This document shows positions 5,232 through 49,226 of a DNA stretch of 64,000 nucleotides, in pieces; position 1 is the stretch's first letter; each line of letters starts with the position of its first letter. This stretch comes from Selenomonas sp. Its GTDB lineage: Bacteria > Bacillota > Negativicutes > Selenomonadales > Selenomonadaceae. The stretch is taken from contig JAKVOG010000007.1 of assembly GCA_022482925.1 (NCBI GenBank), forward strand, positions 1-64,000, in the 5' to 3' direction. The translations under genes were made by a program, and so were the position numbers. Under the pieces are notes generated by a model. It saw only the letters and a program-made list of their open reading frames with translations. It did no database searches and was not told the DNA's origin.

Positions 5232-6396
5232 TTATTTACCCATGAACACTCCCGGTCTGTCCTCGGCCAGCCCATAATGATACAGGATAGCCTGGATGAT
5301 ACGCGCGGAAGCCTTGCCATCCCCGTAGGGATTGACAGACTCTGCCATGCGGCCATATTCCTCTTTATTCGTCAGAAGTGCCTTCGCTTCTGCATAGACA
5401 CGCTCACGATCCGTACCGATCAGTTTGACCGTCCCAGCCTCAACAGCTTCCGGACGCTCGGTCGTATCGCGCAGTACCAGTACCGGCTTGCCAAGTGCCG
5501 GAGCCTCTTCCTGGACTCCGCCTGAATCCGTCAGGATCAGATAAGCCCGATGCATCAGATTGGCAAACGGCTCATAGTCGAGCGGGTCAATCAGATGAAC
5601 CTTGGCCAGTCCACCCAGTTCCTCATTGACGACTTCACGTACCTTCGGATTCTTATGAACCGGGAATACGATTTCTACATCATCAAATTCCTCGACCAGC
5701 TGGCGCAACGCCTTATAGACATGACGCATCGGCTCACCAAGATTCTCACGACGATGCGTCGTGACCAGGATGATCCGTTTTCCCTTAAAGTCGATCTTCT
5801 GAAGCATTTCATTCTCAAACTGGAAATCCTCACGGACCGTATGATGCAGCGCATCAATGACCGTATTACCCGTGACGAAAATCTGCTCTGCCGGCACGGA
5901 TTCTGCCAACAGATTGCGCTCCGATGTCTCGGTCGGGGCAAAATCCAGTTCCGCAATGCAACCAGTAAGCTTGCGGTTCATCTCTTCCGGGAAATGGCGA
6001 ATACTTGTTGTGCGTGCGCAGACCAGCCTCTACATGCCCCACCGTAGTCTGGTGGTAATAGGCGGCCAAAGCGCCGGCAAACGTAGTCGTTGTATCACCA
6101 TGAACAAGAACAATATCCGGTTTTTCCTCAGTCAGTACCTTGTCCAGGCCAAGCATTGCTTTAGAGGTAATATCAAAAAGGGTCTGTCCCTGCGCCATGA
6201 TATCAAGATCGTGATCCGGCACAATATGAAACAGGCTCAGGACCTGATCCAGCATCTCACGGTGCTGTGCCGTTACCGCTACGACCGGCGTAATCGTATC
6301 CGGATGCTTCTGCAGTTCCAGTACGATTGGCGCCATCTTGATTGCCTCAGGACGCGTCCCGAATACAGTCATCACCTTGATTTTCTTCTTGTCCAT
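5232..6396 (-). CDS. wecB: UDP-N-acetylglucosamine 2-epimerase (non-hydrolysing), frameshifted
   Basis: It interconverts UDP-GlcNAc and UDP-ManNAc, the ManNAc donor for surface polymers. The N-terminal frame shows [20 protein letters not shown] and [18 protein letters not shown]. The C-terminal frame shows [32 protein letters not shown] and [17 protein letters not shown], all hallmark motifs. The frames meet at about 5985-5992 in a CCCGG run, where one extra base is likely. Intact length would be about 388 residues, normal for the family. It is 75 nt downstream of the WecA/TagO-like gene, so the pair probably starts an undecaprenyl-linked GlcNAc/ManNAc polymer. Confidence 0.92.
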
Positions 6397-27907: not shown

Positions 27908-28357
27908 TTACTGCAGCTGCTGGATTACATCGTCCGTTACATCAACGGCTCCCGTAATCGCAACCGGCTGTTCCTGAGAATTATTGACAACTGCATCAAG
28001 TTTCTTGCTCTTGGCTACAGAACCGAGTGCAACATCCAGTTTCTGACGAAGCTGAAGCGCATAGGACTGATTGAGTCCCTGCAGCTTACGCTGTGCTTCC
28101 ATTTGTGCTTTCTGGGCATCTTCCTGACTCATGTTCGGATTCTCCTGCATCTTCTGCTGGAGTTCCTGCTGAGACTTCGTCTGCTCTTCCTGCATCTTCT
28201 GGTTGCCCTCTTCGACAATAGCCGAAATCTGCGGTGCTTCCTTCGAGACACGATTGCCATCGATATAACCGATCTTTGCCTTGCCGCAACCGCTCATAAG
28301 CACCATTGAAGCCAGGGCTGCCAAAAGCAGTACTGTTGATTTCTTTCGTAATTTCAT
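27908..28357 (-). CDS. OmpH/Skp-like lipoprotein
   Basis: This 149-residue protein has a lipoprotein signal (VLLLAALASMVLMSGCGK, Cys as the likely acylated residue). It continues with IGYIDGNRVSKEAPQ, matching the start of the OmpH/Skp fold, and a Gln/Lys/Glu-rich hairpin of helices. It ends with the strand-rich TGAVDVTDDVIQQLQ typical of the family. Skp proteins are periplasmic holdases for outer membrane proteins. A lipidated version would stay tethered to a membrane. It is the third of three skp-like genes in a row. Confidence 0.75.
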   Translation of the reverse strand: MKLRKKSTVLLLAALASMVLMSGCGKAKIGYIDGNRVSKEAPQISAIVEEGNQKMQEEQTKSQQELQQKMQENPNMSQEDAQKAQMEAQRKLQGLNQSYALQLRQKLDVALGSVAKSKKLDAVVNNSQEQPVAITGAVDVTDDVIQQLQ

Positions 28358-28409
28358 GTTATGATTCGCTTCTTTCTATACCTTAGATTCTTCTTGTTTT
28401 TCATGAATG

Positions 28410-29562
28410 TTACGGACTATTCTCCGCCGTCCCCGAAAGGGATGCCATTTCCTGTACCAGTTCATCCGTGACATCAATCGTCTTCACACCCACTGCAATG
28501 CTTGATTGCGTCTGAAGCGGATCGATAGATTCCAGATTCTGATCGAAGCTGGACAGGGTACGCGGATGATCGACCAGGATCAGCGTAAAATGATGCAGGA
28601 TAGCAATCTTGGCCGCCTTGCCTGCTACATCATTCAGGATATGCGCTTCAAGCGCCTGCATTGCCGACCGCTTATCGGCCAGCTGCTGCCGCTTCTCCAA
28701 TCGTTGCTGGACCTTTTGAGCCAGCTCCAGCTGCTGCGCAACAATATCCGTATTGCGGGCATCTGCCTCCGATTGCTTACGGGCTGCATCCGATTCCTGC
28801 TCTGATTTGGTCTGTGGCAGGCTCTGCTGCCATGCCGCCAGATCCGGTCCCAATGCCGACTGGACATGCGCAGCAATATCCTGCTGCCGTGCACGGTAAA
28901 GTTCCATCTGCCGTGCGCCGCGCTCCTGCTGGAGCTGCCAGCGTTGCTGCTCCCATCCGGCCTGTTCCGCTGCGATATCCTGCTTGGAATCCAACGGATT
29001 ATGCATGGCCGCCTGGTTATCCAGCCTGAGATTCAGGTTCAGGATTGCATTGAGATATTCATCATCAATCGCCTTGACCCGGGCCTGGAACTCTTCCTCA
29101 GTCGCTTTCGTATACTCCGCGCGAATCTTATTGGCCTTGCGTTCCAATGCCACTTTTCCGCCAATGACATCATGGGCATTCTTCTGCCAGACCGCATCCT
29201 CGAACGGCTTGGGATTGCCGTCCGGCGGACTGACCTTGAACAGATCATCCACCGACTGCGTCTGAAGCTCAAGTGTCTTGCATTCATCCTGCAGGCTTTG
29301 AAGCTGCTGATAATCCGGATGGGCCTCGATAACCTGCTGCCAGTCAATCAGACCGGCATCTGCCTCCACGACAGTGGACGGACCGACCGGACCATGGCTG
29401 TCGATGAAATGATGAAATAAGCCAGCGCCCGCAGCAATAAGACAGACAGCGATGGCAGATCCAATCAGAATTTCCTTGCGTTTTTTTGCTTTACGCTGCG
29501 CTGCTCCCTTCGCCTCTGATGGCGAAGATGCAACAGGGCTGATTCTTCTCCTGCTCTGTCAC
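28410..29562 (-). CDS. Large membrane-anchored OmpH/Skp-like protein, frameshifted at the N-terminus
   Basis: The intact reading is about 384 residues. A GTG start at 29560-29562 after AGGAGAGGA gives a short polar N-terminus. The frame changes near 29530, and the restored frame shows KRKEILIGSAIAVCLIAAGA (a membrane anchor) then a long periplasmic part. That begins AGLIDWQQVIEAHPDYQQLQ, similar to the Skp N-terminal strand, and is dominated by Gln/Ala/Lys/Glu coiled coil. It closes with VGVKTIDVTDELVQEMASL, again Skp-like. It is more than twice the usual Skp length, suggesting a duplicated or extended tentacle. Function is inferred from neighbours and fold only. Confidence 0.6.
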
Positions 29563-29663
29563 TGCTGTCCTCTCCTGTTAAAAGTAATACCGAGCGCAAC
29601 GAGTGGCTCGGTACTATAAGGCTCATATAACCGCATCGGAACGCTGTGCATTCTGTCTCAGAA

Positions 29664-30129
29664 TTATTTGCTGATCTGCTTAACGACATCCTGCGTGATA
29701 TCCGTGCCACCGTAAACGACAGCACCCTTCTCCAGAACGACCGACAGGCCCTTCTGCTCAGCTACCTTCTTGACAGACTGCCTCAACACTCTTCGTGATT
29801 GGTTCCATCAGTTCCTGATTCTTCTGCTGGAGACGCTGCTGCGTCTGCGTGTAATAGTCACGTTTCTCCTGATCGTTCATGTTTGCGGACTTGGACTCAA
29901 ACTCCTTCTGTGCATCCTGAACAGCCGTCTGCATCTCGGAGCTGGCGGACTGAACCTGCGGATGCTGGCTCATGATCTGATTATAATCCACAACACCTAC
30001 GCTGGAGCTGGCAGCATTGGCCAGGCCAGAGCCGGACTGCGTCAGAGCCAGAGCGACCACCGAGCCGACAAATACGAGTGCAATCAGCACGCTGATAATC
30101 TTAACCTGCTTTTTCTGTAATTTGACCAT
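29664..30129 (-). CDS. OmpH/Skp-family periplasmic chaperone, frameshifted near the C-terminus
   Basis: The intact reading is about 155 residues. It has an N-terminal hydrophobic segment (IISVLIALVFVGSVVALALT) acting as a signal or anchor. VGVVDYNQIMSQHPQVQ and a coiled coil (DAQKEFESKSANMNDQEKRD) follow. After a frame change near 29775 the standard Skp end appears: VAEQKGLSVVLEKGAVVYGG and TDITQDVVKQISK. This is the closest of the three to ordinary Skp. It probably escorts unfolded OMPs to BamA, encoded two genes upstream. TAA stop at 29664-29666. Confidence 0.8.
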
Positions 30130-30274: not shown

Positions 30275-31569
30275 CTAAAAGTCTCCAATCACCCGAAGCC
30301 AGTTCTGATGACGATCCAGCACATATTCCAGACTCAGGAAATCATGCATCTTATAGCGCAGACCTGCCTCACCAAGATGATCGGCAAATCGGTACTCATA
30401 ACGCAGCTGCCAGCGCGGTGCCAGCTGCTGCGAAACGCCCGAGCACAAACCGGCTGGAACGCATGTCGTAGCGGACCTGTCCATGAAACGCGAATTCAGC
30501 CGCCGATCCAGTCCCATCTGCCAATCCCAGTTCATCTGCTGCGGCATAAGATCGAACAACAAAAAATATTCATCCTGCTGACTCAGCATTCTGCCGGCAT
30601 GAACCCGGAAGAGCAGATTATCGTCAGCATTATGCTGCAGAATATCCTTGCGGCCAATATCCTGCCACCCCGTCAGCCTGAGCCGGTAACGGCTGGTATT
30701 GGAACGACTCATCATACGCAGCCGCTCGGCCGCATCGATATCCACATTGGTCTTCATATGAAGTACCCGGAAATCGGCGAGTGTATCCATTTCCTGCCCG
30801 AATTCCTGCTCAAGCTCAGCCTGATGGCGCTGAACAAACGCCACCGGCACGCCTACCAGTTCATCAACCTTGGACTGTGCCAGATCCCGGTGCCCGAGCA
30901 GAGTAAAGCTCGGAATCGTATCGGAACGCATCGACAAATCAACCGTCCGGACCACCGGCAGCTTTGGATAAACCACCAATGTCACTTTGGCCATTGGTTC
31001 CGGCTGAAGCTCAAAATCACCACGAAACTCCGGCAGATGACTGGCCAGATACTCATTCAGATGGTGCTTAAGCACTCCATTCGTCCAATCCGATGCTGCA
31101 GTAGGCAAGCCAATCAGTGCATCATCGAAAACCCGATCCACATCAGCAAGATCCTGTGCACCAGCTTCTCGATTCGTGGCGGCATACCCTCAACAGTAGT
31201 CTCAACCGTTACCTGCCGGATTACTTCCGACCATGGCAGCAGGTGCACATCTACCTGTGTCTGTTCGACCTGGCACGATGATTACCTGCTGGACCGTATA
31301 GCCGACCAGGACCTTATCGAACACCTCGCGGATCAGCTGTTCCTTGGCGCTGCAGCTTCCAGTAACCAAAGACACGTCCTGTCCGGACAACAGCTGATCG
31401 GCTATCGTCTGGACACTCCGGTTCATACGCTCACGCACCAATGGTGGCAGACTATGATCCGCCTGTCACCTGTGCATCGACTGACTCAATACGTGATCCT
31501 GCCTCAACAGGAAGCACCGGCCCCAGAAATAAAGCGGCCATCATGAGCCAGACCAGCGTCTGTTTCATA
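30275..31569 (-). CDS. Unrecognised secreted beta-rich protein next to bamA, frameshifted
   Basis: Joining four frame pieces (breaks near 31155, 31265 and 31460) gives about 430 residues. A signal peptide (MKQTLVWLMMAALFLGPVLP, then VEAG) leads a region with POTRA-like alternation: SVQTIADQLLSGQDVSLV, VLVGYTVQQVIIVPG, QVTVETTVEGMPPRIEKLV. The second half is strand-rich and ends NWLRVIGDF, with a terminal Phe as in outer-membrane barrels. I do not recognise the family. Its place between bamA and skp suggests an outer-membrane or periplasmic protein linked to OMP assembly. The PxYxxF-like barrel signature is absent, so it could also be wholly periplasmic. Confidence 0.6.
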
Positions 31570-33589: not shown

Positions 33590-34159
33590 TTATTGCCGCA
33601 AAGCTTTTCCTGCGGACTGCATTAGTTTCTGCGTTTCCGGTGTTGGTGTCGTCCCCACAGCGGAACGATCCGGCTGACTCACAGTCTGATGAGGTGTCTC
33701 TGACACAGCAGCTGGCTGCTGGACAGGTGCCGCAACGGCAGCTGCCGTTTGCGAAGGGGATTCCGCTCCGGCCGCATGCGGCTCTGGAACAACTTCATCA
33801 ACGGCCGGCCGCGTGACCGTCTGCTCAGGAACACGGCTGTTCAACGTCTCATTGCTCCCCGCCAGAACAGTCTCGCTTCCCGTAACCGTTGACGGCCCGG
33901 AATGTGAACCATCCTGCCAGGCCAGCCAGCCACCAGCAGCTATTGCCAAAGCAACGACTGCCGGTATAAACCGAAGCCCCCAACATTTCAGCCGGTTCCC
34001 ACGCGATGATGCCTGGACCCGTGACAGCTCAGCCTTAGCCAGCATAAGCTTCAGATCCCCCTGAACATCATTTTCATGATCCAGAGAATGTTCCGCCTGG
34101 CCCAGCCAGTCTCTTGCTGCCCGGATATGATTCTTTTGCGTCTTACGCTGGTCTGACAC
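33590..34159 (-). CDS. Single-pass membrane protein with Pro/Thr/Ala-rich exterior, downstream of sigma factor
   Basis: This protein of 189 residues is not recognised. A GTG start at 34157-34159 is chosen because AGGAGGGGA lies 5 nt ahead. The N-terminal cytoplasmic part (about 1-60) is helical and charged (ARDWLGQAEHSLDHENDVQG). One membrane helix follows (GLRFIPAVVALAIAAGGWLA), then a long Ser/Thr/Pro/Ala-rich periplasmic tail. It lies 162 nt downstream of the sigma-70 family gene and 33 nt ahead of bamA. The topology (cytoplasmic helical domain, one helix, disordered tail) and neighbour raise the possibility of an anti-sigma factor, but no anti-sigma motif (such as zinc HxxxCxxC) is present. 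Confidence 0.55.
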   Translation of the reverse strand: MSDQRKTQKNHIRAARDWLGQAEHSLDHENDVQGDLKLMLAKAELSRVQASSRGNRLKCWGLRFIPAVVALAIAAGGWLAWQDGSHSGPSTVTGSETVLAGSNETLNSRVPEQTVTRPAVDEVVPEPHAAGAESPSQTAAAVAAPVQQPAAVSETPHQTVSQPDRSAVGTTPTPETQKLMQSAGKALRQ

Positions 34160-34321
34160 AGCAGTCCCCTCCTGTCTTCCAATCTCAATTTCTCTTGAAA
34201 TTATATTCCAGACGACCTGCCTGTTTTTCCCCCGCCATATTCCGCGAATATAAGAAAAGAACATCAATTATTCGCAATTTCCTACAACTTACATCATATT
34301 GTCACTGTTTTTCTCTTATAT

Positions 34322-34963
34322 TCACCAATGTTGCATAAACCGTGACAACATCCCCCGGACCCGGCGGATCCCACTTTTCTGTAACCGATAAATATGTGAC
34401 GTACTCAGTTGCAGCCCATCGGCTACATCGTTTGCCGTCTCACTTTGCATATATATGCTCTCAAGGACTGTTTTTTCTTTTACGGGCAATCTCTCCATCG
34501 CCTGCTGAACCTTGAACATCAGCTCATGATCCTCAGCCTGTTCAGCTACCGATGGAGACATATCCATTAAATTGTCCTTGAGTGTCATACCACCATCAAT
34601 TGCCGACGCATCCATGCAGGCAATATCGATCGATCCCTCTTTCCTGAGAAAATTCAGCATCCTGCCCCGGATACGATGCACTGAGAACAAACTAAACGCC
34701 ACCCCACGGTCCGGATCATAATGCTCCACCGCTTCGATCAGTCCGATTGTCCCTTCCTGCACCACATCCATGATATTCTCAAGTGCCCGATAAGGCAAGG
34801 CCTGTTTGAACACCAATGGCTGGTACGATTCGATGAGCAGACGCCTTGCCTCTTCATCGCCATCTTTCTTGTAAGCCTGCCAGAGACAGCGTTCCTGCTC
34901 TGGTTCCAACAGCTTTACCCGGCTGAGCTCGGCCACATATTGTTCCAAGCGCAAACTGCTCAC
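34322..34963 (-). CDS. Sigma-70 family alternative sigma factor
   Basis: The 213-residue protein has region 2, including LLIESYQPLVFKQALPYRAL, MDVVQEGTIGLIEAVEHYDP and AFSLFSVHRIRGRMLNFLR. A short middle and region 4 follow, with a helix-turn-helix (LPVKEKTVLESIYMQSETAN, then VADGLQLSTSHIYRLQKSGI). It is longer than ECF sigmas and shorter than sigma-A, closest to the sigma-28/sporulation-type group 3 layout. It lies between tamB and bamA. Its targets are unknown; a role in controlling the outer-membrane genes around it is inference. Confidence 0.88.
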   Translation of the reverse strand: MSSLRLEQYVAELSRVKLLEPEQERCLWQAYKKDGDEEARRLLIESYQPLVFKQALPYRALENIMDVVQEGTIGLIEAVEHYDPDRGVAFSLFSVHRIRGRMLNFLRKEGSIDIACMDASAIDGGMTLKDNLMDMSPSVAEQAEDHELMFKVQQAMERLPVKEKTVLESIYMQSETANDVADGLQLSTSHIYRLQKSGIRRVRGMLSRFMQHW

Positions 34964-34985: not shown

Positions 34986-37900
34986 TTAAAAAGTCGTTCT
35001 TGCTTCCAGTCCGACAACATACGCCCCGCCTTCTCGTTCCAGGGTAAGGCCGAGCCTGTCATTCACATCGTACTGAACGCCATAACGGTTGATATTCTGT
35101 TCCACCAAGGCCACGCGTGTACTTCAGCATAACCTTGTCTGAGATATATTTTCCCATCTCAACATTAAAATCATATTTGTTCGTATCCGTTTCGGCCGTA
35201 TGCGTATCGAACGCCGAGCCGTTGCCACGGGAAATCGCAAACTGATCCAGATAGAGGAAATCCTTCATAGCACCCTCGACCTCAGATAAGAAACTCATCT
35301 GCAAGCCAACGGATAACAGATCACCAACATCCATGTTCGTCTGCCCGCTCTTATACGCATTGCGCAGCGTGAGCATCTGAATGATCTGAGTCTGGCTCAT
35401 CTCCGGACTGGAGGTCAGCTGCAGATCCATATTCCCGCCCAATGGCCCTTTAGCCGACAGGAATACCTTGGCCTGCGTCAGACGGGTATCCGCCAGGAAA
35501 TCAATACTTGGCAGGAACGAACCGACCTGGTTAAAATAGGCCGTACCTTCACGTACCTTGAACACCGTCTTTAAATAATTGATTGTACCGCCCTGCTTTA
35601 CCTGCAGGCTGCCCGACATCTTTGGATGACTGGTGATGCCACCGGCATGGAACTGCCCGGTGAGATACAGATCATACAGATAAGGACTATAGAAATGAAC
35701 CTTATTCCCGACATTCACCTGAACATCAAGGACGATATCCGGCAGCGAGCCATCGCTGTCCGGAATCGCCGGCACCGAAACCACGCAATCCTTGAAATCG
35801 ACCTGCCCTGAAAGCTTCGGCCAGTGATGCCCGTAAAAATCGGTATCAGCCAAATGAAACTGCGCATTCAACGGCCCCCGGAAGAACTTGCTCTGGATAT
35901 CCAGATGGTCCAGGACCAGGTTAAAATCATAATGATTCGGTTTCACCCCATCCAGTTCCAAAGATCCATCCAGCCTATACATACCATTGCCCATTTTACC
36001 AGAAAACTCTTTTACTGTCACTTTATTCCCCGAAAAAACGACCTGTGCCTTCATATCGGTAACCGGCTTTTCCAACTCCTTGAGCTTCATCGACCCGGAC
36101 GGAATCGACACATTCCCATCAATCAGCGGATGTGCCAGTGTTCCATGAATCTTCAGACTGCCATCAGTCGCTCCCAAAGCCCAATCCACCTGCTTGGAAA
36201 GTGTCGGCAGCAGGGAAAGATCGGCGTCATCCAGATTGACAGTCAGCTGAATCTGTTCCTGATCATCCAGCCACTCATCACTGCCAGCGGTAACAGCCCG
36301 CCATGGCACAACCCCCTTGACCGTAGCAGAGCAATTATTCGTCCCGACCAGCTTCTGCACCGTGAACGTTTCTACATTGACCAGACCATTCTTCAGATGG
36401 AAAACTCCATTCAGTGTATCAAAGGTCGACCCCTGTACCCCGCCATTTTTCGCCGTCACGGTAACATCAGCGGATGGATTATTCGTATAACCGCCAAAAT
36501 CAGCAGTCACATCGGCGGTCCCGGTTACAGCTGTATCGACACCGGCCATCTTCGTAAACATCCCGGCCGCTAAACCGGTCGCCGTCAGCCTGGCCTGAAT
36601 CGGACCATCCAGGGCTACATTACCCGAGGCCTGGAACTGTCCATTAGCGCCCTGATAGCCAGACAGTTTATTCACATAGACCACATGGTTCAATAACCGC
36701 AGGTCCAGTTCAACCTGATGGATATCATAACCACCAATCGTCCCACTGGCAATCTCACCAGTTACTGTTGCCGTCGGATTATCGGCAGTACCACTGAGCT
36801 CAATCCCACTGGTTAAGCGTCCCTGTATCAAATCATTTTTCTGATTCATCAAAGCCGATATCGCATTGATATCGGCTTTCTGTACCACGACATTTCCTGA
36901 CAGAGCCTTCGTATTGGTATTCACGGCCACTGCCAGATCATAGCTGCCGTCGTTCTGTTGGAAGCCGAACTGATCAACAGACAGCAGACCATGGCTGTAC
37001 TGGACCAGACCATGAACATTCGTGATGGTCTGATCATTCATGACCAGCTTCGGCGCATCAAGAATACCATGAAAATCCGGTGCGGAAATCGTCCCGCCGA
37101 TCTTGCCCTTAAACGTGCCATGGCCGCTGACCTCATAGGGCAGCTTATGCTCAACCCGCTTGAGATCGATATCCTTCGCTGCCACCACCATGTCCAGTTG
37201 CATCTGCCGGTTGATCGTACCATTAAGCACCATATCGATCATCGGCGAATACGCATGGAAATCCTGCAGACGCAGCAGACCATTCTCGAGGAAATAGTCA
37301 CCATCCATACCGGATAGCAGGACCCCATGATAACTGCCCTGATAGAAATGAATATAGCCGGTAGCCGATGGATTATCCAGCGTCCCGGTTACCTTGATGA
37401 TGTTATCCACATTACCAGTGATTGGCTGATCAGGCGCCAGCAGCGCTGCAATATCTTCCATCCGCGCGCCCATGGTGTCGAGCTGCAGATTGACTTTCTT
37501 TTCACCAGTGAAACCAACCGCACCAACCGCACGCCAGGTCTCCTTGCCATCTTTTTCCATCAGGAAGCTGTCAATGCCGATACCATCAAGACTGCCACTG
37601 GCCGTAAACAGCAGACTGTCAAATGGCTGCTTGAAGATCGCGCCATGCTGTCCCAGGAACCTTACCGCCACCTGCGGATTGCTCGCATCACCATGGACAG
37701 TCCCCTTGAAGTCCGCCAGACCGCTCATGTCGATCCGGCTGTCCAGCTGCTGCAGCAGTGACAAATCCACATGCCCGCCATAGAAAGCCAGATCCAGTTT
37801 TGGCGTTTCCAAAGCGTCTTTTATCGATCCTTCCAGACCAATACTGGTATGGTTCGGCAGATTTGCACTCAGATAATCAATCGTAATATCATCACCAGCC

Positions 37901-39330
37901 GCATAGAAAGAGGTCGTCAGCGAGTCAACTGACAAGCCCCGATAGGTTCCCCGATTCAGGCTGGCATTACCATAAACCTGAAGGCTGCTACGATCCAGCC
38001 CCTTGCCGGTAATACCTACATCCGCAGATACCTGACCGGTAACCGCTGCCAATGATGGCTCATAGACAGCGGCCTGGGACAGATCGATTCCATCCGCCTT
38101 AATGTGTGCGGTGTAACTCAGATCAGCCGCTGAAACAACTGCCTCGCCGGCAATTTTACCGCCTAATACACTTGCCCGCATATCCTGCACAAATACATGC
38201 TGATCCTGATAACGCACTTTCGCAGCAGCATTCTGAACCGGAATATTCTCAACCGTCCCCTGATCCATCTTCACACTGCCGTCCACCTGGGGATCCGTCA
38301 AGGGTCCCTTGACTGCGGCCTCAAAAGATACGGATCCCTGAGCTGGAATATTCTTCAGGATCTTCGACGGGTCGAATGCTGATGAGGACACAGTAAGATC
38401 CAGGTAAGGGGTCCCCGTATCCAAACGGATCTTGCCATGCGCATTGGCCTTCTGGCCAGCTGCTTCCGCATCCACAAAAACCAAAGCTTCCTTATCCGTA
38501 AAGGCAGAATGCCCATGAATAGCGGTAATATCAGTCCCCAGCACATTCACGGCCCCATCAGAAAAGTCCGTTTCCCCGCTGAATGACAGCGTACTGCCAT
38601 CACGGAATACATGCAATACCATATTCTGGACCTTGCCGCCTTTCACGGTGACCGTATCCGGAATCGTCCCCTCAGGAATCCACCCCAGATAATCCGCCAG
38701 GTCCAACGCATCCACCTTCGCCGTCACGATCTGACGATCGCTGGAAACTGTTCCTGATGCTTCAACTGCCGATTCCTGATTTGAGGCAGTTGCCTCAAAT
38801 CTCATGACCGGATAATCCGCACAGTCCAGAGTCCCGGCTGCATCCGTCAGGGTTACTTCTTTACCTTTCATCTGCCCCGTAATTGTCGCCCGTTCCACCC
38901 GGACTTTCCCATGAAACTTCTGCGCGCTGCTGGTCCCGGACATCAGGTCCTGGACGTTCCAGCTGCCATCCTGCCGCTGCCTGATCGTTGCCGTAACATC
39001 CGACACCACAACTTCTTTTACCATGTCAGCCGGTGCGGAAAGCGCAGAAAACAGGCGGTAGGTCACCTGGGCTTTATCAGCCCGGGCAATCAGTTCCGCC
39101 TGTTTATCATAAATAGCCAGATTATGGATTTCCAGATCATGCAGAGACTTCACTTGAATGTCGCCAACATCCACCTGCACCCCCAGGGACTCCGAAACAG
39201 CAGTACTCACCGTCTGCCCCGCCATCTCCATGAAGGCACTGGTCTGTATATAGTATCGGAAGCCACCCAGTCCCAACAGGATCACAGCCAGGACCGCGGC
39301 CAATATTCCTAATGTTCTCCGCTTCATCAT
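34986..39330 (-). CDS. tamB: TamB-like AsmA-superfamily bridge protein, frameshifted near the C-terminus
   Basis: The protein of about 1450 residues has an N-terminal membrane anchor (LGILAAVLAVILLGLGGFRY) and an immense run of repeating beta-strands (DUF490/AsmA-like groove). A C-terminal DUF490 domain follows (GGNMDLQLTSSPEMSQTQII, then QMLTLRNAYKSG). TamB-type proteins span the periplasm and carry phospholipids to the outer membrane. One extra G near 35110 breaks the frame; the restored end reads NINRYGVQYDVNDRLGLTLE and finishes RTTF at 34986. The start MMKRRTLG follows AAGGGGAAC. It is 51 nt downstream of tolC. Confidence 0.9.
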
Positions 39331-39381
39331 GTTCCCCTTAGAAATAACCAATCCCTGGCTGCTTTTCCTTTGTACTTACCG

Positions 39382-48950: not shown

Positions 48951-49075
48951 GCAGGGGTCCAAAATGCCGTTCGCTTTATATGCCTAAAACCTGCGACTAG
49001 CAGGTGGGTGCCCTAAGTCTGGATTCAGTTTCCGCCGAAGCGAACATCCCCCAGAGTCAAATCAGGCTCCCTCAA
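48951..49075. ncRNA. Structured RNA candidate, possibly 6S-like
   Basis: No protein fits here, but the bases fold well. GTTCGCTT (48969-48976) pairs with AAGCGAAC (49038-49045), inside GGGG/CCCC pairing (48954-48957 with 49048-49052). A central open region contains a CCTGC-GACTA-GCAGG hairpin (48990-49004). A long closing stem, large internal bubble and short apical hairpin match the 6S RNA plan. Read on the minus strand, GGGGGATGTTCGC at one end and GCGAACGGCATTTTGG at the other resemble the ends of enterobacterial 6S. At about 125 nt it is shorter than usual 6S (about 180-200), so strand and identity are uncertain. Confidence 0.42.
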
Positions 49076-49226
49076 AAAAATGTAGGTTAGACATAATCAA
49101 AGCCCGCGCACATCCCAGGCTTGTCCTTCTTTGTATGTATAATATCATAAAAAAAAAAGCCACGCAAGACTTGACAATACAGGATAGTTTGCAGTTGCTG
49201 AAAAATCCGACAACCATCATTCTACC

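Follow-up and report, generated by a model that had tools for sequence, protein, structure and literature searches.

A sigma-70 family factor and a putative membrane-bound partner in the tamB–bamA cluster of Negativicutes: a possible trans-envelope control circuit

The window, that is, the whole 64,000-nucleotide stretch of DNA analyzed here, lies in contig 7 of a 22-contig genome. Read along the minus strand, it carries the genes tolC, tamB, a sigma factor gene, a gene for a predicted membrane protein (the "partner"), bamA, a gene for a secreted protein (the "third component"), and ompH-like genes, in that order. The features relevant to this study are as follows.

34986..39351, minus strand: tamB, directly upstream of the sigma gene; its frame shifts near 35100 in this assembly
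34322..34954, minus strand: sigma-70 family factor that has a region 1.2-like N-terminus as well as regions 2 and 4 and lacks region 3; start TTG 34954, GTG 34963 being possible
34224..34232, minus strand: -35-like element of the partner promoter, consensus [GT]G[TC][CG]AAAA
34202..34208, minus strand: -10-like element of the partner promoter, GAATATA, 49 nt before the partner start
33590..34159, minus strand: inner-membrane partner and putative anti-sigma factor (189 aa) with a helical cytoplasmic domain, one transmembrane helix, a disordered linker of approximately 90 aa, and a conserved C-terminal helix
31605..33557, minus strand: bamA (Omp85 barrel and POTRA domains), presumed second gene of the partner operon
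30275..31568, minus strand: third component, a secreted protein predicted to combine three POTRA-like domains with a 10-strand barrel; approximately 430 aa in relatives and frameshifted here

The tamB open reading frame is listed as 35059–39351, and comparison with the tamB end of another locus (L038) placed the real stop at 34986–34988, past the frameshift. The sigma open reading frame is listed as 34322–34963 on the minus strand; a ribosome-binding site and alignments indicate TTG 34954 as the start, and the gap between the tamB stop and the sigma start amounts to 22 or 31 nt, depending on the start chosen. The start of the partner is GTG 34159, as judged from a conserved block and the ribosome-binding site GGAGGGG. 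A longer partner reading frame, starting at 34267, was rejected because the extension is not conserved.

Of the 48 untruncated loci with a sigma gene (L051 and L108 being one record), 47 have tamB just upstream of it, the exception being a genome in which the sigma gene is found on a different contig (G298, locus L139). Since the gap after the tamB stop is short in the loci with printed sequence, the sigma gene is probably read together with tamB. Inspection by eye revealed a terminator-like hairpin 3′ of the sigma gene in several loci (L041, L042, and L045). The partner and bamA come close behind the sigma gene, as a rule together with the third gene. In the window, frameshifts affect the third gene (30275–31568) and the 3′ end of tamB, and the orthologues are intact; because tamB is affected too, the frameshifts in the third gene are probably indel errors of the assembly. 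Between the third gene and lpxD, at 27908–30129 on the minus strand, three open reading frames in a row have the appearance of OmpH/Skp proteins.

Curated models place the sigma factor in the sigma-70 superfamily by regions 2 and 4. Pfam Sigma70_r2 was matched with 57 bits (cut-off 24), Sigma70_r4 with 27.7 bits (cut-off 24.1), and the superfamily model TIGR02937 (sigma70-ECF) with 86.5 (cut-off 42.9). The initial annotation, which had described a sigma-70 factor with these two regions between tamB and bamA, is hereby confirmed, and the flanking genes are as described there. Region 2 is similar to that of group 3 sigma factors of the FliA/WhiG/SigB type. Unlike these factors, which would be recognized by region 3 together with a curated equivalog or subfamily score, the present protein gave no match to a region 3 model at E ≤ 1 and stayed below the cut-off of every equivalog shown, the FliA, SigB, and WhiG models being far under theirs (e.g., 74.7 of the 189.6 needed for FliA_WhiG). 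It is thus not assigned to group 3. Other sigma factors are also encoded in the genome.

The AlphaFold2 model of the partner (mean pLDDT 69.5) consists of a helix (residues 2–51), a second helix (residues 53–85) that would contain the transmembrane segment, a stretch of low confidence without secondary structure (residues 86–174), and a C-terminal helix (residues 175–189). Conservation follows the same layout: an N-terminal domain with the pattern H-x-x-AA-x-x-WL ... L-x-x-MLA-x-AEL is followed by the transmembrane helix, a Pro/Ala-rich linker, and the C-terminal helix with the motif Q-x-LMxxAGKxLR. Most of the invariant residues lie in the cytoplasmic N-domain. The C-terminal motif, scored by eye and then with a loose pattern, was present in 76 of 77 distinct tails (taken from 115 open reading frames, several of which came from overlapping loci), with G318 as the sole exception; outside Negativicutes, the tail carries a related amphipathic motif. 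Model and conservation together bear out the earlier description of a single-pass protein with a cytoplasmic helical domain and a disordered periplasmic tail. The partner belongs to no Pfam or NCBIfam family. When 21 partner rows were searched against Pfam, nothing scored better than E 0.034, the only anti-sigma model listed was NrsF (one row, E 0.053), and neither the RseA N-terminal domain nor another known anti-sigma domain was matched, in line with the earlier statement that the protein is unrelated to RseA in sequence. A Foldseek search with the partner model returned five matches, the best with an E value of 7.

The third protein has approximately 430 residues and a signal peptide, and it usually ends in Phe. 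No credible Pfam match was obtained for four orthologues. Its predicted structure (pLDDT 88) contains three beta-alpha-alpha-beta-beta units followed by ten barrel strands. Foldseek ranked TamA and BamA first (E 1.9e-10, with a TM-score of approximately 0.2 over the whole), and predicted POTRA-like domains preceding a barrel are a feature that the third protein may share with these Omp85 proteins. Whereas Omp85 barrels have 16 strands, the model has 10; moreover, there was no Pfam POTRA or Omp85 match in the four orthologues (for Omp85 at E ≤ 10), sequence profiles did not relate the protein to BamA of the same clade, and a profile search against PDB chains gave three weak matches only (E 0.12 or worse). 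In the VIA structure comparison, which covered mainly the barrel (residues 289–429), this part matched OpcA (135 residues with Z 12.2 and rmsd 3.4) and a designed membrane barrel of 10 strands (130 residues with Z 13.0 and rmsd 2.9); soluble barrels, nitrobindin among them, were listed too. From the signal peptide, the POTRA-like part, and the C-terminal Phe, we infer that the third protein is a membrane barrel. No TonB-dependent receptor or plug domain was matched in the orthologues searched (four against Pfam, two against NCBIfam).

Among 60 relatives, own genome included, 54 have an orthologue of the sigma factor, and the partner occurs in exactly these 54; in the remaining six, the sigma search returned nothing but distant paralogues (E 2.5e-12 or worse). 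Given this shared distribution, the two genes are no chance open reading frames. Among 300 genomes of Negativicutes, matches numbered 233 for the sigma factor, 236 for the partner, and 237 for the third gene. The lists of these genomes, which do not name the unmatched ones (47, 44, and 43, respectively), were compared by eye; on this basis, every genome with the sigma gene also has the partner and the third gene, and there is no clear exception in the class. Five genomes were non-matching. In G061 and G228, the sigma gene is cut by the end of a contig, and in G174 and G253, the contig breaks off shortly past bamA or within the third gene. The partner match in the fifth, G203, was partial and located elsewhere on the contig, and it was rejected as a true partner.

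Ten loci from genomes that have lost the module (referred to below as losers) were read. All ten genomes keep bamA, which is the next gene after tamB in nine of the loci, with gaps of up to approximately 400 nt; tolC is present in eight, and the tenth locus (L127) has no tamB in the stretch examined. None of the ten loci contains the third gene. Genome-wide absence of the third gene was listed for seven losers (G005, G028, G033, G132, G188, G261, and G271), and for G203 it follows from the genome having been sampled and not being among the matches. It is probable for G044 and G050 as well, which have no third gene within their loci and are not among the matches. On a BamA tree of 61 rows, in which loser rows were coded as missing the third gene, eight changes are needed, of which at least seven fall on branches with support. 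Third gene and sigma gene change together in seven of seven independent pairs (p 0.016) when L050, whose contig ends before the third gene, is coded as present, and in six of six (p 0.031) when L050 is left out. Because the third gene lies across bamA, the joint loss of all three genes with retention of bamA cannot be the result of one deletion. Linkage is also broken in some genomes that have the module: the third gene is on another contig in L140 (G287) and L146, and in G287 (third gene) and G298 (sigma; L138 and L139) these members are unlinked on other contigs, yet all three genes are kept.

Outside the class, 6 of 145 genomes had a sigma match above 200 bits, the next match having 92 bits. 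The order tamB–sigma–partner–bamA is preserved in all six, and an lpxD match in four of the six loci points to LPS-type envelopes. Five of the six have the third gene; for the remaining one, G318, none was found at E values up to 10. Three genomes without an orthologous sigma factor (G314, G328, and G343) had no third gene either. No genome other than G318 was found to combine sigma and partner with absence of the third gene, and the partner of G318 keeps the N-domain but has no C-terminal helix. As one natural experiment in a single genome, which is not proof, G318 would link the C-terminal helix of the partner to the third protein.

The spacer between the sigma gene and the partner holds a conserved element. 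The motif GAHTRTA occurred in 41 of 56 non-redundant sigma–partner spacers, compared with 3.9 expected (maximum 11 in 300 shuffles) and 10 of 56 on the reverse strand as a control. It was missing from 15 spacers, and two of the 41 positives belong to the oral group described below (L054 and L056). None of the ten loser spacers before bamA contained it. At a fixed distance from GAHTRTA lies the block [GT]G[TC][CG]AAAA, whose columns were not used in selecting the sites. This -35/-10 pair does not fit sigma-A, and the spacer thus contains a conserved promoter sequence that is not sigma-A-like. A weight-matrix scan of the window gave the spacer site a score of 19.0, followed by 14.7 at 6370 on the minus strand, which is at shuffle level. 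In a scan of 56 loci, the sole recurrent position was ahead of the partner, where 28 of the 47 loci with a sigma gene had the site (in the losers, 0 of 9 loci had it ahead of bamA), although the matrix had been trained on sites that were then rescanned, so that the rescan adds only the absence of other recurrent sites. A shared motif ahead of tamB and the lpx genes, which the initial annotation had proposed to look for, was accordingly not seen, whereas the spacer promoter and the third co-inherited gene had both been missed. A known RNA element in the spacer was rejected; the only Rfam match in the window is a 6S RNA gene at 48952–49124 on the minus strand (RF00013, 63.6 bits).

The promoter consensus of FliA is similar in shape to the spacer promoter. 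FliA scored over the cut-off in 10 of 18 genomes tested and was not found over the cut-off in G131, G190, and G234. Two of these carry the full promoter site (G131 with a score of 15.9 and G190 with 16.7), and G234 has the -10 core only. Conversely, the losers G005, G033, G261, and G271 have FliA over the cut-off and lack the core motif before bamA; G261 and G271 show, by eye, sigma-A-like boxes 18 nt apart in that position, and G005 has only a 38-nt gap. FliA was therefore rejected as the reader of the spacer promoter. In eight oral Selenomonas/Centipeda loci (L051–L057 and L060), the sigma gene is kept and the spacer promoter is sigma-A-like, TTGAAT-N18-TATAAT.

The initial annotation had proposed that sigma factor and partner form a sigma/anti-sigma module linked to the envelope. 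The adjacency of the two genes, their joint loss, the predicted single-pass, N-in geometry of the partner, and the presence in most loci of a promoter unlike those of sigma-A at the head of the partner–bamA operon make this the best reading, on circumstantial grounds, and we extend it to a trans-envelope circuit that controls the partner–bamA–third operon, with a probability of roughly 0.6. The gene order, the co-loss, the conserved promoter sequence, and the predicted domain layout are observed; what we infer is binding of the sigma factor by the partner, the direction of the signal, and recognition of the promoter by this sigma factor. The partner, located in the inner membrane with its helical N-domain predicted to face the cytoplasm, would hold the sigma factor. 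Its disordered linker could span the periplasm, and the conserved end helix would find its docking site in the POTRA-like part of the third protein, itself a likely BamA client in view of its predicted barrel and usual C-terminal Phe. A change in outer-membrane assembly would alter docking and free the sigma factor, which would then use the conserved promoter immediately 3′ of its own gene to transcribe the partner–bamA–third operon. Transcription of the operon would raise BAM capacity and restore the inhibitor, closing a negative feedback loop. Such feedback cannot be universal, because the oral Selenomonas/Centipeda group has a sigma-A-like promoter in the spacer. Also counting against the circuit are the 15 of 56 spacers that lack the core motif, the two motif-bearing spacers of the oral group, the 10 of 56 matches in the reverse-strand control, the retention of sigma and partner without the third gene in G318, and the lack of clear similarity between the partner and known anti-sigma domains.

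The last of these points would be expected if the partner were a part of the envelope rather than an anti-sigma factor, for example a tether or a BAM/TAM helper that joins the inner membrane to the third protein, with the sigma factor just switching the operon on. The covariation of the periplasmic half of the partner (linker and C-terminal helix) with the outer-membrane protein is also consistent with such a role. We nevertheless regard it as unlikely, since it is the N-domain that contains most of the invariant residues and that is kept in G318, where both the periplasmic helix and the third gene are missing, and since sigma factor and partner are not clearly separated in any of the 300 genomes. 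A different doubt concerns the promoter, which could be read by another sigma factor while the targets of the present one lie elsewhere in the genome. The genome does encode other sigma factors, the motif resembles FliA promoters, and the oral clade has a sigma-A-like promoter at this very position; however, the -35/-10 pair is unfit for sigma-A, G131 and G190 carry the full site without FliA over the cut-off, and the four FliA-positive losers lack the core motif before bamA, which leaves this explanation with a low probability.

Finally, the joint loss could reflect nothing but proximity, the genes being neighbors in a cluster prone to decay in certain lineages and having no shared function. 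All three genes do lie within approximately 5 kb in the window, and losses occurred in several lineages. This account is improbable given that bamA, which sits between the partner and the third gene, is retained in the ten loser genomes, with tamB beside it in nine of the ten, and that G287 and G298 keep all three genes despite unlinked members. We thus favor the trans-envelope sigma/anti-sigma circuit. A more specific version of it, which we put forward only tentatively, is a three-part alarm common to several lineages of two-membraned Firmicutes, comprising a POTRA-barrel test client assembled by BamA, an anti-sigma factor with a disordered line and a helical hook, and a released sigma factor that directly sets bamA transcription. 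If this were true, the cell would be gauging the output of BAM or how far apart its two membranes lie.

How the diderm cell plan arose is a matter of debate, and the module bears on outer-membrane sensing and control in diderm Firmicutes. Conserved through the Negativicutes and in lineages outside this class, it sits as an insertion within the bam/tam cluster. Its sigma factor falls into no named subfamily, and the other two proteins fall into no family at all; together they provide a promoter of defined sequence along with candidates for the inhibitor and for the sensor in the outer membrane. No description of the module was found in the open-access journal literature searched. In the accessible part of the main text of an eLife 2016 paper on the cluster (PMC5007114), the word sigma was not found, and the accessible part of a Veillonella proteome paper (PMC5491611) mentions sigma only for RpoS and in a reference. 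According to the same part of the latter paper, TamB and BamA of Veillonella parvula have consecutive locus tags (PMC5491611), so that this studied diderm Firmicute probably has no sigma factor or partner between them. This may be why the module has been overlooked.

In its logic, the proposed circuit resembles FecIRA, RseA, and Dma, although none of these fits by the features tested and the parts belong to no named family. SigmaE/RseA of Escherichia coli combines an alternative sigma factor with an adjacent single-pass, N-in membrane protein and is tied to outer-membrane protein assembly. The present module shares the alternative sigma factor next to a single-pass, N-in protein and the tie to outer-membrane protein assembly; unlike RseA, the partner has a disordered linker and a C-terminal helix and gives no RseA match, and a predicted outer-membrane protein is co-inherited with it. 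The FecI/FecR/FecA system consists of a cytoplasmic sigma factor, an inner-membrane regulator, and an outer-membrane protein, and the same three kinds of parts are found here, but the outer-membrane part has POTRA-like domains and a 10-strand barrel instead of being a TonB-dependent receptor, and the genes lie in the BAM cluster. Dma, which is described as confined to Bacteroidota, is an anti-sigma factor in which a single protein bridges the outer membrane and the cytosol; the sigma factor of Dma1 belongs to ECF21 (PMC13088901). An anti-sigma function with this reach is what we propose here as well; unlike in Dma, the span would be split over two proteins, the modeled partner ending in a 15-residue helix with no barrel and the barrel being encoded by a separate gene.
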